Shown: positions 6,165-64,000 of the stretch, in pieces
Numbering within the stretch: the stretch's first letter is position 1
Layout: every line of letters begins with the position of its first letter
Origin: Prototheca cutis
Lineage: Eukaryota > Chlorophyta > Trebouxiophyceae > Chlorellales > Chlorellaceae
Assembly (NCBI GenBank): GCA_002897115.2
Contig: BCIH01000003.1
Span: 80,828 to 144,827 of the forward strand
Reading direction: 5' to 3'
Length of the DNA: 64,000 nt
Notes under the pieces: model-generated
Seen by the model: the letters and a program-made list of their open reading frames with translations, nothing else
The model's database searches: none
Told to the model about the DNA's origin: nothing
Program-made: the position numbers and the translations under genes

Positions 6165-8687
<2,523 letters not shown>

Positions 8688-50663: not shown

Positions 50664-53600
50664 TCAAGCTCCCTTGGGGAATGAGTCCTTGAGTGTGCAC
50701 GTTCGGTTGAGCACCAGCTTGCCGTCGGCGCTGTCTGGATCGACGGCAAAGTAGCCGAGCCGCTCCAGTTGGAACCTGGAGTGGCAAGGATGGCGTTGTA
50801 TTGTGTCCGATGTTGGTGCATGGATATCGCGAGAGGTGCCGCCAGGTGCCACTCCAGACCAGGGTTCCCGCTGGTTGGGGGAGACGCCATGCCCTAAACA
50901 ATCCAAAAAGCATCGTGGCATGCAGCCCCCCCCCCACAGCTCACCTGTCGCCCAGCTTGGCGGCTGCGAGAGCCGGCGTGGCAAACGCGCCCTGCACCAC
51001 CTCGAGGGAGCTGGGGTTGAGCTCCGCCAGCCAGTCGTCGCTGCTGGCCGGCGACTGGGACGTGAACAGAACATCGTACAGCCGGGCCTCAAACGTGGGC
51101 GGCTCCACGCCGGGCTTGGGCTGTGCCACCCAGTTCAGCACGCCCTGTGGGACATCGGTCGGTTGGCCACGTATGTGGAGGGGTGAGCGAATGGGTTGTG
51201 TGTCAGAGTGAGATACTCCCCCGCAAAAACACACGCGCACACACAACAGGCTCTCACCTTCGGCGGCTTGCGGCCGGCGGCCCTGAAGTCGCGATCGCAC
51301 GTGGCCTCCAGGCCCACCACCTTGCCCTCCACATCTTTGAGCACGTTTGTGCACGTGATGGGGTAGGCATACCTGGGAAAGGGTGGAGGAGTTGGGAACG
51401 CTGCTGTTGGGTGAAAAGTCTTAGAACAGAGCTCCCGGTCAGCATCACCTCGGCCCACGACATCCCAAGGCACGTGCACGTCGAGTCAATGGCACAATCA
51501 CCACCGCAGTCTTTCTCTCCCCCCCCCTTGGGGGTCCCCCCAAAACATACCGTAGCATGACCGTCTTGCCCGGGGCCAGGCCATAAAAGTCCTTGGAGTC
51601 CTGCTCCCTAAAGTCGGTGGCTTCGATGTACACGACCCGCGAGAAGGGCACGGCGTACGTCTCACCCCCACGTCCAGGGAAGTCCTGCATTGCATTTGTT
51701 AAGGGTGGGAGATGAGTGTGTGGTGGGGGCAGTCGCCGGGTCCTAGCCACCCCGCCCGCATGTACGCAGAAGAAAAGTTTACAAAAGTCACCTGGGCTTC
51801 AAGCTGCTCCACGGCGTCGGCGGCCACGTTTGTGAGCTCGATGCGCAGCGGGCGAAGGACGGCCAGGCGCCGGCGCGAGGTGGCGTCCAGGTCTGCGCGG
51901 ACATGATAATCCAGCTTATGTTGCCAGACCTCGCCCTCGGACCGCGTGACACCCAGCTCGCGGCAAAAGTTGTTGATGGCGACGGGGGTAACGCCCCGCC
52001 GACGCAGGCCTGACAGGGTCAAGAGCCGCGGGTCGTCCCAACCCCGGACGTAGCCGTCGGTCACCAGCCGGTTGAGCTTGCGCTTGCTCAGCACATTGTT
52101 GGTCACATTGAGCCGCGAATACTCCCACACCACGGGCTTGTACAGATCCAACACCTGGATGCCAGTGGCGTGTTTTGGGGGACGGGCGGGTTGCTGTTCT
52201 GAGGGCTCCTGCCGATGTGCATACGCCTGTTCAGACTGCCTCCTGCTCCGTGCTATACCCCCCAACACACACACACACGCGCGCGCGCACACGCACCTCT
52301 AGGAGCCAGAAGAAGGAGGCACGGCGCGACTCAAACTCCAGCGTGCACATTGAATGAGTCACATTTTCGAGTGCGTCAACGATGCAGTGGGTGAAGTCGT
52401 ACGAGGGGTATACGCACCACTTGTCCCCGGCATGCGGGTGCTCCGTGAATTTGATCCGGTACGCGATCAAGTCAAACATGTTGTAATTCTCGTTCTTGTG
52501 GTCCTGCCGCATCCTGTGAGCAGTAGTAGGATTGATGGGAATTAACTGCGTGCGTGCGCGTGCGCGTGTGCGTGTGTGTGTGTGTGCGCGTGCGCGTGTG
52601 CGTGTGTGTGCGCGCACGCGCGTTCGCATTTTGGGAACTGGAGATGGGGTTTCACACTAAACAAGCGCTGGCACACACAAACACAGAAAACAAGCACCCT
52701 CCCACCCCGACCACCGATGACAACGCTGCACGCCAAAGCACCCAAGTATCCATTTCTCACCGCAGCGTGGCTTTGCCCTCGTCGATCAGACCGCGGCGCA
52801 TGTCTTCAAACAGCTGCAGCGACTCCTCCTTGGGCCGATCACGCCATGGGCTGGGCTCCCGCTTCTCACGCGATCTTCAGTAGAGTGGTGGTTTGGGGGG
52901 TCCGATGTGGTGGAGGCCAAGGTGTCGCAGGGTTGATAGGAAAGCAAACCCTCTCCATCGGCCCCCGGCTCACTCTTTGATCTGCTCGCCAGTCTGGTGG
53001 CAAACGTACGCATGACCCGACTCGATGAGCTTGACAGCCAGGGCATAGAGCTCGTCAAAGTAGTCCGAGGAGTAGGTCACCTTCCACGGCTTCCACCCCA
53101 TCCACGCGATAATCTCCTGGATGTGGTCAATGTACTCCTGCTTCTCCGCCTCTGGGTTGGTGTCGTCGTAGCGCAGGTAGCAGTCGCCGCCATACTGCGC
53201 GGCCATTCCAAAATCCACGAACATTGCCTTGGCGTGCCCGATGTGCAGGTAGCCGTTGGGCTCGGGAGGGAACCGGGTCAGTACACGGCCGCTGGTTGCC
53301 GCCAGGTGCGCCCCGAGTTTCTCCGCGGAATTGGCAATGTGCATTTTCTCGCCATTGGAAAAGTGTACCGTCGTGTGCACCTTGTTGTTCTCCTCGGGCT
53401 TGGCCAGGAAGGCATAGGGATCGGCGGTGCGCCACGCCTCCTCCGCCTCCTCCGCTGCCACCTTGGCCTTGGCATCCGGCACGTCGGCCTTGGGCTTCTT
53501 GTCCTTGACCTTCTTCTTCTTGTCGGGCTTGATGTTGTCGGCCTCGGTGCGGGGCCCCAGCAGCGCCTCCACCTGTGCCTCCAGCTCCTTCTTGGCTGCC

Positions 53601-54587
53601 GCCAAGTCCACCCACTTGAGCCCGGCCCGAACCTCAGCCAGCAGCATGTTGGTGTTGGCGTGGTACCGCTCCTCACGCAGCCGCGTCTCGTGCTTGCTGA
53701 TGACTTCAGACACCGCAGACGCAATCTGCTCGGCCGTCACGACTACGCCCACGCCGGCCGCCTCGTCGAGCTTGGCGCCGTCCAGCGGCTCGCTCCCCGT
53801 GCTCGCCAGAAACTCCAGCGCCGCATCCAGCTGCGCATTGCTCTGCGTGCGGATGGATCGGTTGGTGGGTCTTAGGGATGGCGTGGGTGTGGGTATCGGG
53901 AAGAAGGAAGGGAGGGGGTGTGGTGGAAAGGCCAGGGGCCTGCTCCGTTTCCATATGCCGTGGGCATACCGGGGAATGGATGCAAAACCTGAGGCAGCAA
54001 AATAATACAAACAACCGATCATCTAACATCGAAATAATCCAGGTCCCACCTTGATTTTCTCGTCGACAACGTAGCGGAGCAGCATATCTCGGTGCACCAG
54101 CGCATTCCCAGGGTACTGCAGGAGAAAGGCGTTGGTGTGCACTGACTCATCAGTGTGCATGATCATCCCCAGCTTCGTGCATGCACTTGGCCGATGCACT
54201 CCGAGCCTGCCTCTGCATGGGCCCCTTCCGATCCCCAGACCAGTTCACAGACCTTGCTCGCGACAGTGTACAGCAGGGCTCCTTGCTGCTTGGGGCATCC
54301 TGCCTCCACCCCTGCGTCCTTGATGATCTGGACCAGCGACTGGCGGAGCTTGGCGTTCTTCACGGCCCCCCTGCGCATCGGGCATGTCGGAGCATGGGGA
54401 CATCATGGCCAAGTCAGAGCTGTGCTGGCGGTCACCCCGCACGCCCACTCACGCGCCCAGGCCGCAGGGACAGAATTGGGAAACGCTGCGTTTCACCGCT
54501 CATTACTCACGCAAGTGTCCCCGGCGCGAGCTGGATGGCCTCAAACAGCCTGGTCGCCTCGGCCTCCTGCTCCTCCCGCGACGACAT
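50664..54587 (-). CDS. GlnRS: Glutaminyl-tRNA synthetase, cytosolic eukaryotic type
   Basis: Complement join 50664-50775, 50945-51144, 51258-51372, 51551-51684, 51792-52154, 52297-52513, 52761-52874, 52974-53842, 54050-54115, 54253-54370, 54511-54587 gives 794 aa, phases all consistent. The N-terminal YqeY-like appended domain has [16 protein letters not shown] and [22 protein letters not shown] Lys-rich linker precedes the catalytic core: [20 protein letters not shown] (HIGH), [40 protein letters not shown] (KMSKS equivalent) and [17 protein letters not shown]. The anticodon-binding domains follow to [11 protein letters not shown]. It charges tRNA-Gln for cytosolic translation. Confidence 0.96.
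52551..52622. repeat. Alternating purine-pyrimidine (TG/CG) tract in a GlnRS intron
   Basis: About 70 bp of GTGCGC/GTGTGT alternation within intron 52514-52760. A second ACACGCGC tract lies at 52266-52292 in the next intron. Such sequences favour Z-DNA. Confidence 0.85.
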
Positions 54588-59012: not shown

Positions 59013-59664
59013 GCTGCTCCGAGCAAGCAAGCGCTGTTTCTTATTGATTGCATGGATGCCGCGTTTGATGGAGGCTGCTCACTCCCAGTGCCCATCCTGA
59101 AACGCCTTGCCAATCCCCACTGTAACTTGGGCTTTGCTGTTTTAAAGAAAGCAATCATCCAGCACCTCGCTATGAATCCATCAAGGACAGTTGTTTGTGT
59201 TCTGATGCAAGCGAGCTTTCTGATGCTGGAGGAAAGGGGATGTGGAGGCATGTTGAGTTGTCTGGCTCGGGACACTTGTTCAATTGAGCAAAACGGAATC
59301 AACCCTAACTACATTCACGGCAGAAATGATGGAACATTCCCGAGAATCGTCGACTCCCACCTGCACAGCAAGGGCATGTTTTTCAGACAAGATGCCTGTT
59401 GGACCGCATTCCCTGGGCGCATCGCTCAGAGAATGGGTTGGGTTCCTTCCTTGCAGCAGGGCAGGTCGTGCAAGGAGGTTTTAGAAGGTCCTGGACATTG
59501 AGCCTGGCACGACACTTGTTGCAACTCGGTGGTCCATCATTGAGGCAGTCCACCGTCCTATTGCCCTGTGGGGGGTGACAATTCACAGCCATCAGTGATG
59601 CCCAGCAACCCCCGGGGTGATGTGACGCTGTTGCTGGCTGAGCTGGCTGCATTATTTTTGCCCT
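59013..59664. other. Intergenic with one copy of a dispersed repeat
   Basis: Contains the repeat copy at about 59322-59510 described separately. The remainder shows no gene. Confidence 0.5.
59322..59510 (-). repeat. Dispersed repeat, copy A, with a degenerate Cys-motif frame
   Basis: Diverged but clearly homologous to 62342-62530 (for example CGACTCCCACCTGCACAGCA is identical in both). On the minus strand a frame (stop at 59383, open to 59652) reads CNKCRARLN...KPPCTTCPAARKE, then a GMRSNRH segment. The C-x2-C ... C-x2-C arrangement is like small zinc-binding modules found in many repeat-borne ORFs. The frame closes soon afterwards, so this copy is probably a fragment of a mobile or multicopy gene. 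Confidence 0.65.
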
Positions 59665-62106
59665 TCATGGTACAAGAAATGGGTGTTGTAAGAGGGCCCC
59701 GGCCGTGACGCCACCTCGCAACAGCTCCCCCAGTAAGTGCCAGCCCGCCTGGCCGTTCTCATCGAGGAACGACACGACACCCTTCCAGTGGGCGTCATGG
59801 TGCCAGTGCCTCCTGAGCAGATCCACATCGCTGTGGACCAGATGCTTTATCATGCAGCGCAGCGCTGGTTCGCGGGACCCGGCCTCGGCCTCGGGCGATC
59901 CAAGCCCGGCCATCACCGTCTCCAGAAACACCAATGCCGCCGCTGCAAGGTCTGAGGCGGCACCATGCCAGAACAGCTCGCTCACAATATGTTCTGGATG
60001 TCCAGCCACTGTGGCAATGGCTCTGCACTCCAGCGAAGCCGCCCATGCAGCCAGGGGGGTTGTTGTGATGGCTGCAGTAGTACCTGTACCGGGTCGCTGT
60101 CGAGCATCCCCACCAGGGGGTAGGGGCCCAGCACATCCCGCTCCATGCCTCCCGTCCCGAGGGCACAGGATGTGCCGGGCACAGCTCAGCCCGTCCAACT
60201 TGACAATCAGATCCCCGGCTCGCCCATCGTCAAAGGTAGAAAGCAGGACCGAGCTCATGCCCAGTGACCCATGCACGACGCCCCGGCCGTGGCAGTACTC
60301 CAGTGCCCTCAAAATGCCCCGCATGATTGCCCTGATTGGTTGTTGCAGTTGTTGGGGGGCAGGGATGGAACGGGAGTCAGTGAGGGCTGAGGCCTTCGTC
60401 AAGGGGAACCCAGGCGTAGCAGCCCGGCGGTTGCAGTACGACATGATGCTAAATCAAGCAACAGGGTCCCACATATTTTCAACACCTGCCCAGGCATCAT
60501 TCAAAAGCAGCAAACAAACACACAATGTCCCAACAACCGCAGCACCTGAGCATGTCTTTCTTCTGCTCAAGGGCCAGACAGGACGAGAATCGCAGCGCTC
60601 CCAGCAGCCCCTTGTCTGGCTGACCCAGCGCGGCATAGCTCGCCAAGGAAGCCAGACCCTCCCACTTGCATACTACCCTGTGCAGAGGTGTGAGTGCATG
60701 CAGGTCAGCTCTTGACACCCGACATGAAGGAGCGACGATGGATCATGGGGGGTTCGGTGCATGGTGGGGTTTTCAACATCCTACCCACCCACCAGGCACG
60801 GCTTTTCTTCCCCCACATTCCAGGACCAGTCTCACCCACCATGCCAAAATTCCAAAGCCAAACCCTAAAACAGAAACACACGGACCAGATGGCATGCTCG
60901 GGGTGTGCCTTGACTGCGTTGGGCACGAGCTGTACTGCCCTCTGGCTGTGCCGGCCCAGAAAATAGCCCAGCAGAGGGACGACAGGGGGCTCAGGCGAGC
61001 GTGGGGCTGTGGCGGCATCCCATTTGTCCTTGGCATGGGGCATGCCAGTCAGCTCGTGCAGCACCTCCAGCTCATTGCAGGCCACCACCTGAGCACCTGG
61101 CAGGTATCTGCTTGAGAGCTGGAGAAATTTGGGTCAATCTGCATGCACTGTGCCGTGGTGCGGGAGAAAACCCACGGGCATGCCGATTGTCGTCCAGTGC
61201 GCAATGTTACAAGTCCGGCACTGCAGACAGAAATCCTCGATCATCCGCAGGCACGCACTCTGACAATGCCAGTGCAATTCCGCTTGAAACTCACTCACTC
61301 TCTAAGTAATACAAGAGCGTGGTGCTCAGCCGGCAGGCCCGGGCGGTAGGTGGCAAAGTAGTTGATGGCCGCAGGGCTCCATCCAAGGGGATGGGAGGGT
61401 AGGCGGCGTGCTCCGTGCTGCTCCTCACCGTCATCGTCATCCTCAAATGCCTGCCGCTTGCACATTCATGAGAGTGCCACTCTGAAATGCTGGATACATC
61501 AAGCAAACCTACGACTCCCTCAATTCGTTGGTCAGGAACGTACCACCATTGGTTCCGAGGGCTTGAGGGACAGGAGCACACAGTGGTGGGTGCGACAACC
61601 GCAGCACAATCCCATGCACAACCAAAAGGCACCTGGAGACCTCTCCACTCAAACCCCACATTACAAACCTGTTGTTTCAGGCAGATTTGGCCCAGTTCTT
61701 CACCAATGTCAAAGTCAGATGGGTGAAGGCCGCCAGGACCAAGAGCGGCCCTCAGGCGCTCCTGGGTGACGTGCCCACTCTCGTCGGGAAGGCTCGACAC
61801 CGTGGTTGGGTTTTCGAGATATCGCCATTGTTTTACCTCGAACCTCTTGTTTCCATGGGTTCCGGTGTCATGATGAGAGTGGGGATGTGCGGCAATGAAG
61901 GATGCTATCCCATCGAGGGAGGAAGACGTGGCCCGAGCGACGACAAGGTGTCGTGCTGCGCCCCTCGGGTTTTGTCGATGCCCTGCGTATGCCGCTGCAT
62001 GGTTCCGGGAGTGGCATCTTGGATCCAAAATCCTTGTCGAATGTTCGTGCGACAAGGAGTCCATGGCCCAGTCAACCTTCGATGCCGCATGCGCATGATG
62101 GCCCAT
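59665..62106 (-). CDS. Divergent protein kinase-like protein (pseudokinase)
   Basis: Supported exons, minus: 59665-60331, 60546-60677, about 60900-61107, 61299-61450 and 61669 upward, with a possible ATG at 62106. The junctions LLRE-YLPGAQVV (61299/61107) and DMLR-AIMRGIL (60546/60331) are phase-perfect; the exon between 60.68 and 60.95 kb is unresolved. The C-lobe has LRALEYCHGRGVVHGSLGMS where active kinases have HRDL..N, and VKLDGLSCA where DFG is expected. Both catalytic Asp residues are gone, so it is probably inactive. VVCKWEGLASL resembles the hinge of plastid STN-type kinases. The N-terminus is Ala/His/Arg-rich; plastid targeting is possible. Family placement is tentative. Confidence 0.55.
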
Positions 62107-62341
62107 TGTTATGGAGCCTTTCCGAGCATCACACCCCCGGCGACGGGTCCCGATCAAGAATGCCGCATACTGAACGCAGATTATGAGATCACAGTTGGCT
62201 CGAATGGTGCGATGTAGTAGAATGCCTGTGAACAGTATGCCCGTTCGGAAAAGTTTCCGGGCATGGAGCCCCATCGGGACAAGATTTTTCTCGGAACCGC
62301 ACAGATGGGGGTCTTCCGAGGGTGCGGTACGATTCTACAGT

Positions 62342-62530
62342 GACGGCAGAAAATGATGAAACCTTGTCGAGATTCATCGACTCCCACCTGCACAGCAAGG
62401 GCATGTCTCTCGAAATGCCTGTTGGACCGCATTCCCTGGCCGCGTCGCTCAGAAAATGGGTTTCGTTCCTTCTTGGCAGGACAGGTCGTGCAAGGAGAAA
62501 GGTCCCGGGAATTGACCCCCTGGCAAGAGC
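62342..62530 (-). repeat. Dispersed repeat, copy B
   Basis: Homologous to 59322-59510. Its minus-strand reading keeps SPCTTCPAKKERNPFSER and GMRSNRHFERHALAVQV, so protein-level similarity is conserved on that strand. It lies immediately upstream of the duplicated Fanzor start. Confidence 0.65.
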
Positions 62531-62639: not shown

Positions 62640-62757
62640 AATGGCCCGCAACTTTTGGGGTAGCGAGCGGGAGGCGCCCAGGGGCGCCATGACGACCGTC
62701 AGGGCGTCAGTGCGTGCGACCTGGCAGCGCAGGTTCCACGGTCTTCTGGACGAATAG
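62640..62757 (+). pseudogene. Duplicated, truncated start of the Fanzor-like gene
   Basis: ATGGCCCGCAACTTTTGGGG begins a frame (MARNFWGSEREAPRGAMTTV.., ending FHGLLDE then TAG) that parallels the start of the downstream gene (MDRDFWGRGREALKGVFTAA.., FHRPLEQ). About 118 bp are shared at moderate identity, about 290 bp apart. A stop ends it after 39 codons, so it is a broken partial copy. Confidence 0.7.
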
Positions 62758-62930: not shown

Positions 62931-64000
62931 ATGGACCGCGACTTTTGGGGCCGCGGGCGGGAGGCGCTCAAGGGCGTCTTTACGGCCGCCAAGGTGTCGG
63001 TGCTGGCGACCTGGAAGCGCATGTTCCATCGGCCTCTGGAGCAGTATGTCCAAAAGATGCATCCCGTGAAGCAGCATGCCTCGTTCTTCGCTGCACTCGT
63101 GTTGCTGGAGGAGGACGAGGCGGGCAGTGCGGACTTTGCAACGCGGTTCGTCTGTCCCAGGTTCTTTGCCGAGGCCTTCCTTTGCATGGTCAGCTACCCT
63201 AGGAGGAAAACACGCAACGACGAAACGACGTACTTCCGTGCCCGTTTCCAGAGGTCCTGGCCCACGTTCCAGCAGGCGACTGCGTACGAGCGGCGGCAGT
63301 TCTACCACGCACCGAACCAGGTGACTGATTCAGTTGTGGTTGCATGTGTTGCTGGCATCGCGGGCTGAATGCAGGATTGTCTAGTGTCTGTGATGGGTTG
63401 AGATGCAATGGCCCAGACCACGTGGTGGACGAGCTGGGTGCTCCTTGACGTGCAGGATGCCAAGTACTGGGGAGAAGCCCAGTGCGCGGCGGTGGAGGCC
63501 AACGTTCGCAAGCACTTTGGCGAGCACGTGCGGGGCACCATGAACCTGATCCTCAACGTCAAGGACCGCCGGAAGGAGCTGGATGCGCGGGCGCGCAGGG
63601 AGGGCTGGGATCGCNAGAGGCGCAACGAGACGTGCGANCNGGAGGTCAACNGCCCCGCGAGGCGCATCAAGGAGGCGCTCGGGCGCCTGGAGGCGGCCNT
63701 GGAGGGAATGGACGCCGCGCAGCAGGCAAAGTACGACCGGCTGCTGCAGCTTCTGCGCAACGCCTATCCCCCGGGGTACCAGTTCAAGAAAGGCACGCTC
63801 TACTACGACTCCAAGGCCAATCCGAGGGAGCACGTTCGCGCGATGATCGCGATGTCCCGCTTCCGCGTCGAGGAGGGAATGCGCACGTTCCGGGCCATCC
63901 CTATGCACACGTCGCATGTGCCTGGGGCGGTGCAGATGGACAACTTGATCGTTTCAAAGCAGTTCCTGAAGGACAGCAAGCTTGGCTCATTCGCGGCCAA
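62931..64000 (+). CDS. Fanzor (eukaryotic TnpB-like RNA-guided nuclease), N-terminal part, runs off the window
   Basis: Exons 62931-63320 and 63456 to the edge (about 311 visible residues). The ATG at 62931 was chosen because its first residues match the duplicated copy upstream; an open frame continues back to 62781. The donor is GTGACT and the acceptor TGCAG, phase 0. The second exon has a long helical arm (VKDRRKELDARAR, IKEALGRLEAA), then LYYDSKANPREHVRAMIAMS and FRAIPMHTSHVPGAVQMDN. This YDxKxNPxxxLxxMxxM ... PLRTxxVPxxxxID pattern is the conserved block just before the RuvC domain in Fanzor and giant-virus TnpB-like proteins. The RuvC motifs themselves lie beyond 64000. Five Ns at 63615-63699 obscure a few residues. 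Confidence 0.75.

Follow-up and report, generated by a model that had tools for sequence, protein, structure and literature searches.

Which protein is encoded by the split gene that runs into the right edge of this stretch of Prototheca cutis DNA, and to which genetic unit does this gene belong? The window, i.e. the whole stretch of 64,000 nucleotides analyzed here (G000:C3:80828-144827), was examined together with the 19.89-Mb assembly of 23 contigs in which the genome searches were carried out. Very probably, the right edge of the window lies within a copy of a DNA transposon with terminal inverted repeats (TIRs) whose one recognized gene encodes the RNA-guided nuclease Fanzor1; the mechanism ascribed to it below is borrowed from work on Fanzor and TnpB. 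The front of the gene, its intron, the family assignment, the catalytic residues as read from two sister copies, the element ends, the copy numbers, and the miniature derivatives come from the present analysis.

A gene split by an intron at the window edge

Exon 1 (62931..63320, plus strand) encodes 130 amino acids and is open from the ATG at 62931. It is followed on the same strand by a spliceosomal GT-AG intron of 135 nt (63321..63455) and by exon 2 (63456..64000), of which the first 181 codons, covering the region ahead of RuvC, are visible before the sequence turns into N. Exon 2 contains no stop codon across 63456-63998; six of its 181 residues read as X, each from a single N. A run of 5,126 N, either an assembly gap or a stretch not displayed, starts right behind the last base of the window; because these approximately 5.1 kb adjoin the window end, the RuvC part of this copy is unreadable. 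Past the N stretch, at L009:6855-7700, lies a GTPase-like exon that resembles EHD or dynamin proteins by eye.

The initial annotation had placed an intron at 63321-63455, and this was borne out by its conserved donor and by protein alignment across the joint. The donor CAG/GTGACT is identical in 24 of 24 aligned rows including the window, and the acceptor is visible for seven rows. The spliced protein of 311 amino acids matched P0006, an environmental protein of 649 amino acids, with an E-value of 1.5e-47 among 25 homologues. This match forms a single stretch (residues 35-298) that spans the exon joint, a gap of one residue lying next to it; P0006 was taken as one uninterrupted frame, which is presumed.

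A Fanzor-type protein had also been proposed for the right edge. Visible exon 2 matched the Fanzor1 protein of Parasitella with an E-value of 5.2e-10, the sole significant match among 177,635 PDB sequences, and 53 places in the genome matched it, a count that includes the locus itself and, in several cases, separate fragments of a single copy. These two results rule out chance as the source of the Fanzor likeness. Pfam returned no match in either visible exon at E-values up to 1, and an Rfam search of the window returned nothing at gathering scores.

Sister copies identify the protein as Fanzor1

Two sister copies could be read beyond the pre-RuvC region. Exon 2 of copy L025, which runs to its end, matched Fanzor1 of Parasitella parasitica (PpFz1) with an E-value of 1.5e-55 and that of Spizellomyces punctatus (SpuFz1) with 3.6e-28; exon 1 of L025 carries frameshifts. 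Copy L056, an element of 3,429 bp, has both exons open up to the stop, with scattered N. The Fanzor1 motif is described as D-X(125,275)-[TS][TS]-X-X-[C4 zinc finger]-X(5,50)-RD in PMC3627910. L056 matches the Fanzor motif with D409, E575, CPAC at 582-585, CTNEKC at 620-625, and RD at 637-638; in the Fanzor1 order, D409 is followed by TS at 578-579 and by C582, C585, C620, and C625, with RD 637-638 last. The catalytic D, E, and D are retained in both sister copies readable that far.

A structural model predicted for exon 2 of L056 reached a mean pLDDT of 67.3 and a pTM of 0.53, with residues 228-384 below 50. A fold search with this model yielded eight PDB chains at E ≤ 0.001: the seven best are Fanzors of three species, led by PpFz1 (E = 3.2e-24), and the eighth is a Cas12f. 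Searched as single proteins, the sequences gave only sub-threshold Pfam matches to Cas12f1-like_TNB. The assignment of the protein at the window edge to Fanzor1, as first suggested, is thus supported by sequence, by the motifs that the sister copies show for the catalytic site and the zinc ribbon, and by the predicted fold of one of them. PpFz1 (PDB 9cf0-9cf3) is the best PDB match in both sequence and fold and has the RuvC, zinc-ribbon, and LWNRD blocks in common with the algal protein. Unlike this fungal protein, the algal one has the glycine-rich, low-confidence residues 228-384 ahead of RuvC-I, and its gene is split by an intron, a comparison made on the algal side only.

Comparison of the L056 fold with giant-virus proteins gave a best E-value of 1.5e-20, the matching proteins being mostly listed as uncharacterised or as transposase; these matches of a predicted fold are taken to indicate the family only. 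A viral origin was considered and rejected: in one scan of viral contigs with L056, three stretches fitted the pattern and none was confirmed by tblastn.

Related proteins

Among the 25 homologues, the two closest are environmental proteins with 73% and 48% identity. An organism name was available for 11, all of them fungi (Pilaira, Rhizopus, Mucor, Coemansia, and Blakeslea). In this single, word-limited search, the nearest named kin appear to be zygomycete fungi, and algal kin may have been missed because of the word limit. A homologue search with P0002 as query returned one fragment only. In a tree of 19 rows, for which a midpoint root was used for drawing only, the two copies from the window genome and two environmental proteins formed a group with support of 100/99. 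These four, the fungi, and one further environmental protein formed a group of 11 rows with support of 100/100, the two Coemansia rows being long and unsure.

Host exons are found on the minus strand of the window at 6165-8687 and 52970-54022 and belong to an FAD-binding monooxygenase and a glutaminyl-tRNA synthetase. The best named match of the monooxygenase exon is from Auxenochlorella (61% identity), followed by Parachlorella and Micractinium.

The gene resides in a transposon with inverted ends

Position 62931 is the start of the gene, and the transposon begins earlier, at the TA dinucleotide 62336..62337 (plus strand), a presumed target-site duplication that marks the 5' boundary common to the copies in hand. 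Adjacent to it lies the 5' TIR (62338..62363, plus strand, extent approximate). The 5' end of the family reads CC(A/G)TGCAGGGCAAAAATG; the window copy carries the CAGTGACGGCAGAAAATG variant, and its own 3' end is not visible. In sister copies the 3' end reads GCATTATTTTTGCCCTGCATGG followed by TA, which repeats the commoner 5' end in inverted orientation with 24 of 26 bp matching. Allowing up to one mismatch, 192 + 182 = 374 element ends were found genome-wide, compared with 0 + 0 for a reversed-pattern control. The TA was present at all 45 of 45 5' ends and at 83 of 88 3' ends, with patterns for end finding that themselves contain TA. No empty site was seen.

The element is approximately 3.4 kb long, and Fanzor1 is its one recognized gene. 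At least 77 places in the genome match full exon 2 (66 of 315 candidates scored), several of them being pieces of one copy. With its intron, inverted ends, and multiple copies, the gene is both eukaryotic and transposon-borne. The initial view that this copy is adapted to a nuclear genome is fair, but the gene is a passenger of a repetitive transposon rather than a lone gene.

Miniature derivatives accompany the full elements. One of them, 363 nt long including both TA, lies within the window (59310..59672, plus strand) and consists of approximately 205 nt of the 5' end fused to approximately 145 nt of the 3' end; it adjoins a minus-strand open frame that is kinase-like by eye. Together with 14 facing-end pairs from the first 100 places listed, it makes up a set of miniature elements that range from 117 to 702 bp. 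TA flanks both sides in 15 of these 15, again with search patterns containing TA. L061 and L069 are nearly palindromic elements of 117-120 bp with a 3'-type end on both sides, and L066 likewise has a 3'-type end on both sides, in a weaker form. Furthermore, the 5' ends of L031/L048 and of L038 stand head-to-head with one TA in common, as if an element had inserted at another's end.

Some copies are decayed. Eight of the 77 exon 2 places stop at codon 199-201 and 11 start at codon 597-604, which suggests a recurrent internal deletion. L028 shows both sides of this deletion, L019 and L022 read through a similar joint by eye, L022 and L028 are devoid of exon 1, and several Fanzor copies contain frameshifts or stops. 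These observations would fit a window copy that is itself an internally deleted or decayed derivative without RuvC and dependent on the enzymes of other copies. We regard this as unlikely, yet as a case to be reckoned with: both visible exons of the window copy are open, and the N stretch has room for the rest of the gene, although gap lengths may be estimates. The visible part ends before the deletion joint and is therefore uninformative on the deletion.

A transposase was searched for by profile. With DDE_3, neither the element nor any partner sharing its ends yielded a Mariner-type transposase, and the controls were detected in three of 14 cases; with DDE_1 and Transposase_1, no partner matched, but none of the controls was detected.

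Comparison with known Fanzor elements

Elements that encode Fanzor1 alone and have both TIRs and TA duplications have been known since 2013 (PMC3627910), and the following three elements are described in the same source. SPu-1 of S. punctatus, the element of SpuFz1, resembles the algal transposon as a Fanzor1-only TIR element with putative TA sites and a target-adjacent motif (TAM) ending in TA (PMC3627910, PMC10432273). Unlike the algal element, it is described with a single open reading frame, 33-bp TIRs, and 17 full-length copies (PMC3627910); the algal element has an intron, TIRs matching over 24/26 bp in typical ends, and many miniature derivatives. The Mariner-like PUl-4 of Pythium ultimum likewise contains Fanzor1 only, TIRs, and TA duplications, but its TIRs match those of confirmed Mariner elements (PMC3627910), whereas no such algal partner was found in searches whose DDE_1 and Transposase_1 controls were silent. 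CMe-1A of Cyanidioschyzon merolae also occurs in an algal genome, with approximately 150 copies of a Fanzor1 element and a shorter relative; in contrast to the element described here, it is listed as unclassified and without TIRs (PMC3627910).

In the related host Auxenochlorella UTEX 250-A, the most abundant repeat encodes a Fanzor, and this element is left uncharacterised in PMC12633428 and PMC12636532. Auxenochlorella is absent among the 11 named homologues, and its Fanzor repeat is likened to ours by description only. Literature searches combining Fanzor with Prototheca returned only this Auxenochlorella work, and those combining Fanzor with MITE or inverted repeats returned no paper naming Fanzor. 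With the present element, Fanzor1 gains a lineage from a trebouxiophyte alga, whose small genome carries many relatives of the element. Since full and miniature copies are found together in one small genome, the TAM, the use of guides, and the contribution of Fanzor to transposon maintenance become testable in a single organism.

Selection on the exons

Amino acid changes in both exons are fewer than the non-coding parts predict. Relative to the expectation from the non-coding parts of the element, the ratio of nonsynonymous to synonymous changes was 0.42 for exon 2 (17 copies) and 0.68 for exon 1 (23 copies). These counts cover the copies in hand only and are not independent, because the copies share ancestry. 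Changes creating stop codons were depleted in exon 1 (0.17 of expectation, scaled) and not depleted in exon 2, where they amounted to 1.17 of expectation after scaling (13 counted, four distinct). Simple dN/dS values were 0.31 for exon 2 and 0.48 for exon 1; the intron read as a frame gave 0.40 and the mini-ORF frame described below 0.41. Because non-coding frames reach such values, the composition-aware count was preferred over raw dN/dS.

Constraint on amino acids would also be expected if the Fanzor gene served as a host gene or had lost its use as a nuclease (regulation of the transposon by DNA binding would be one example), and RNA-guided cleavage is a prediction only. Such a role is nevertheless highly improbable given 53 and at least 77 matching places, 374 element ends, and the retention of all three catalytic residues (D, E, and D) by the two sister copies legible to that point.

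Upstream of the gene, a 38-codon open frame (62641..62757, plus strand) duplicates the start of exon 1. Its first 110 nt are 79% identical to this start at a spacing of 290 nt, and the stretch accounts for 44 of the 100 places among the exon 1 matches listed. This mini-ORF is free of stops in 23 of 23 copies and showed no sign of constraint at the protein level, its ratio being 1.01 relative to a neutral set of which the mini-ORF itself was part.

Target sites, a possible guide RNA, and a proposed mechanism

In 24 of 43 left ends, TG precedes the TA, compared with 10.9% of the 2,062 TA sites of the window (p = 8e-13). SpuFz1 has a measured TAM of CATA according to PMC10432273. From the TG preference and the analogy to SpuFz1, a TAM of 5'-TGTA may tentatively be predicted, with weak support. 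Right flanks start with CA in 22 of 79 cases (p = 3e-5), a partial mirror of the TG at the left. Where both ends of an element were available (18 elements), TG is found at the left in 7/18 and CA at the right in 5/18; because of these similar counts and the mirrored CA, a symmetric preference of a transposase is possible. The TG may thus reflect target choice by the missing transposase instead of a TAM, an explanation to which we give a slightly less than even chance. It accounts for the weaker CA mirror and for the 18 two-ended elements without clear asymmetry; it agrees less well with the asymmetry between left TG and right CA across the full set of ends used (Fisher p = 0.003), and the TAMs of the Fanzors treated in PMC10432273 sit 5' of the target.

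Reported omega RNAs of Fanzor1 are 75 to 150 nt long (PMC11423790). The 316-nt 3' non-coding part of copy L057 is strongly structured, folding with a z-score of -5.1, and 305 nt of the 5' part of the window copy with -2.6. The last 72-73 nt, presumed to hold the omega RNA core, folded no better than shuffled sequences in three of three copies (z from 0.52 to 0.66). An 8-bp candidate 3' stem showed no covariation over 74 distinct sequences, being 94.4% paired compared with a shuffled mean of 94.4%. The presumed core thus gave no signal, and that the element's 3' end specifies an omega RNA is a plausible inference.

According to work on Fanzor and TnpB, the element's 3' end would give rise to an omega RNA extending into flanking DNA, which would serve as the source of the guide. 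The Fanzor-RNA complex would then recognize the empty site, in which the left flank, with its terminal TGTA, would provide the TAM and the right flank the target. Cleavage of this site by the complex, followed by repair off the copy that bears the element, would restore or spread the transposon; movement itself would be provided in trans by a transposase, which was not found.

Each of the 374 dispersed ends and miniature elements adjoins a different flank. Because each end has its own flank, those ends and miniatures that carry a 3' end might form a dispersed bank of guide RNAs acting in trans, which would load one Fanzor made from a few intact copies; we consider this rather improbable. If miniatures do make working guides, they would constitute a guide bank in a eukaryote, of which we know no report from a limited literature search around Fanzor.

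Further Fanzor-like families in the genome

A whole-genome search with PF07282 yielded 97 places, six of which overlap full-exon-2 places by eye. The best eight of the 97 (L001-L008) have a common protein end, with DEFRTSQ, CSAC, CxxCG, and VWNRDVNAARNI at 8/8 loci. They are nearly unrelated to the window family, with one match of 31 residues, and gave no PDB match at an E-value of 0.01. These loci may represent another family of Fanzor- or TnpB-like proteins, highly divergent from the first and maybe more numerous. Additionally, a sister Fanzor1 family with open frames of 680-770 amino acids was observed at G000:C4:1446661-1448568, C4:1450459-1452405, and C2:1189522-1191282; it is 50-54% identical to the first family.
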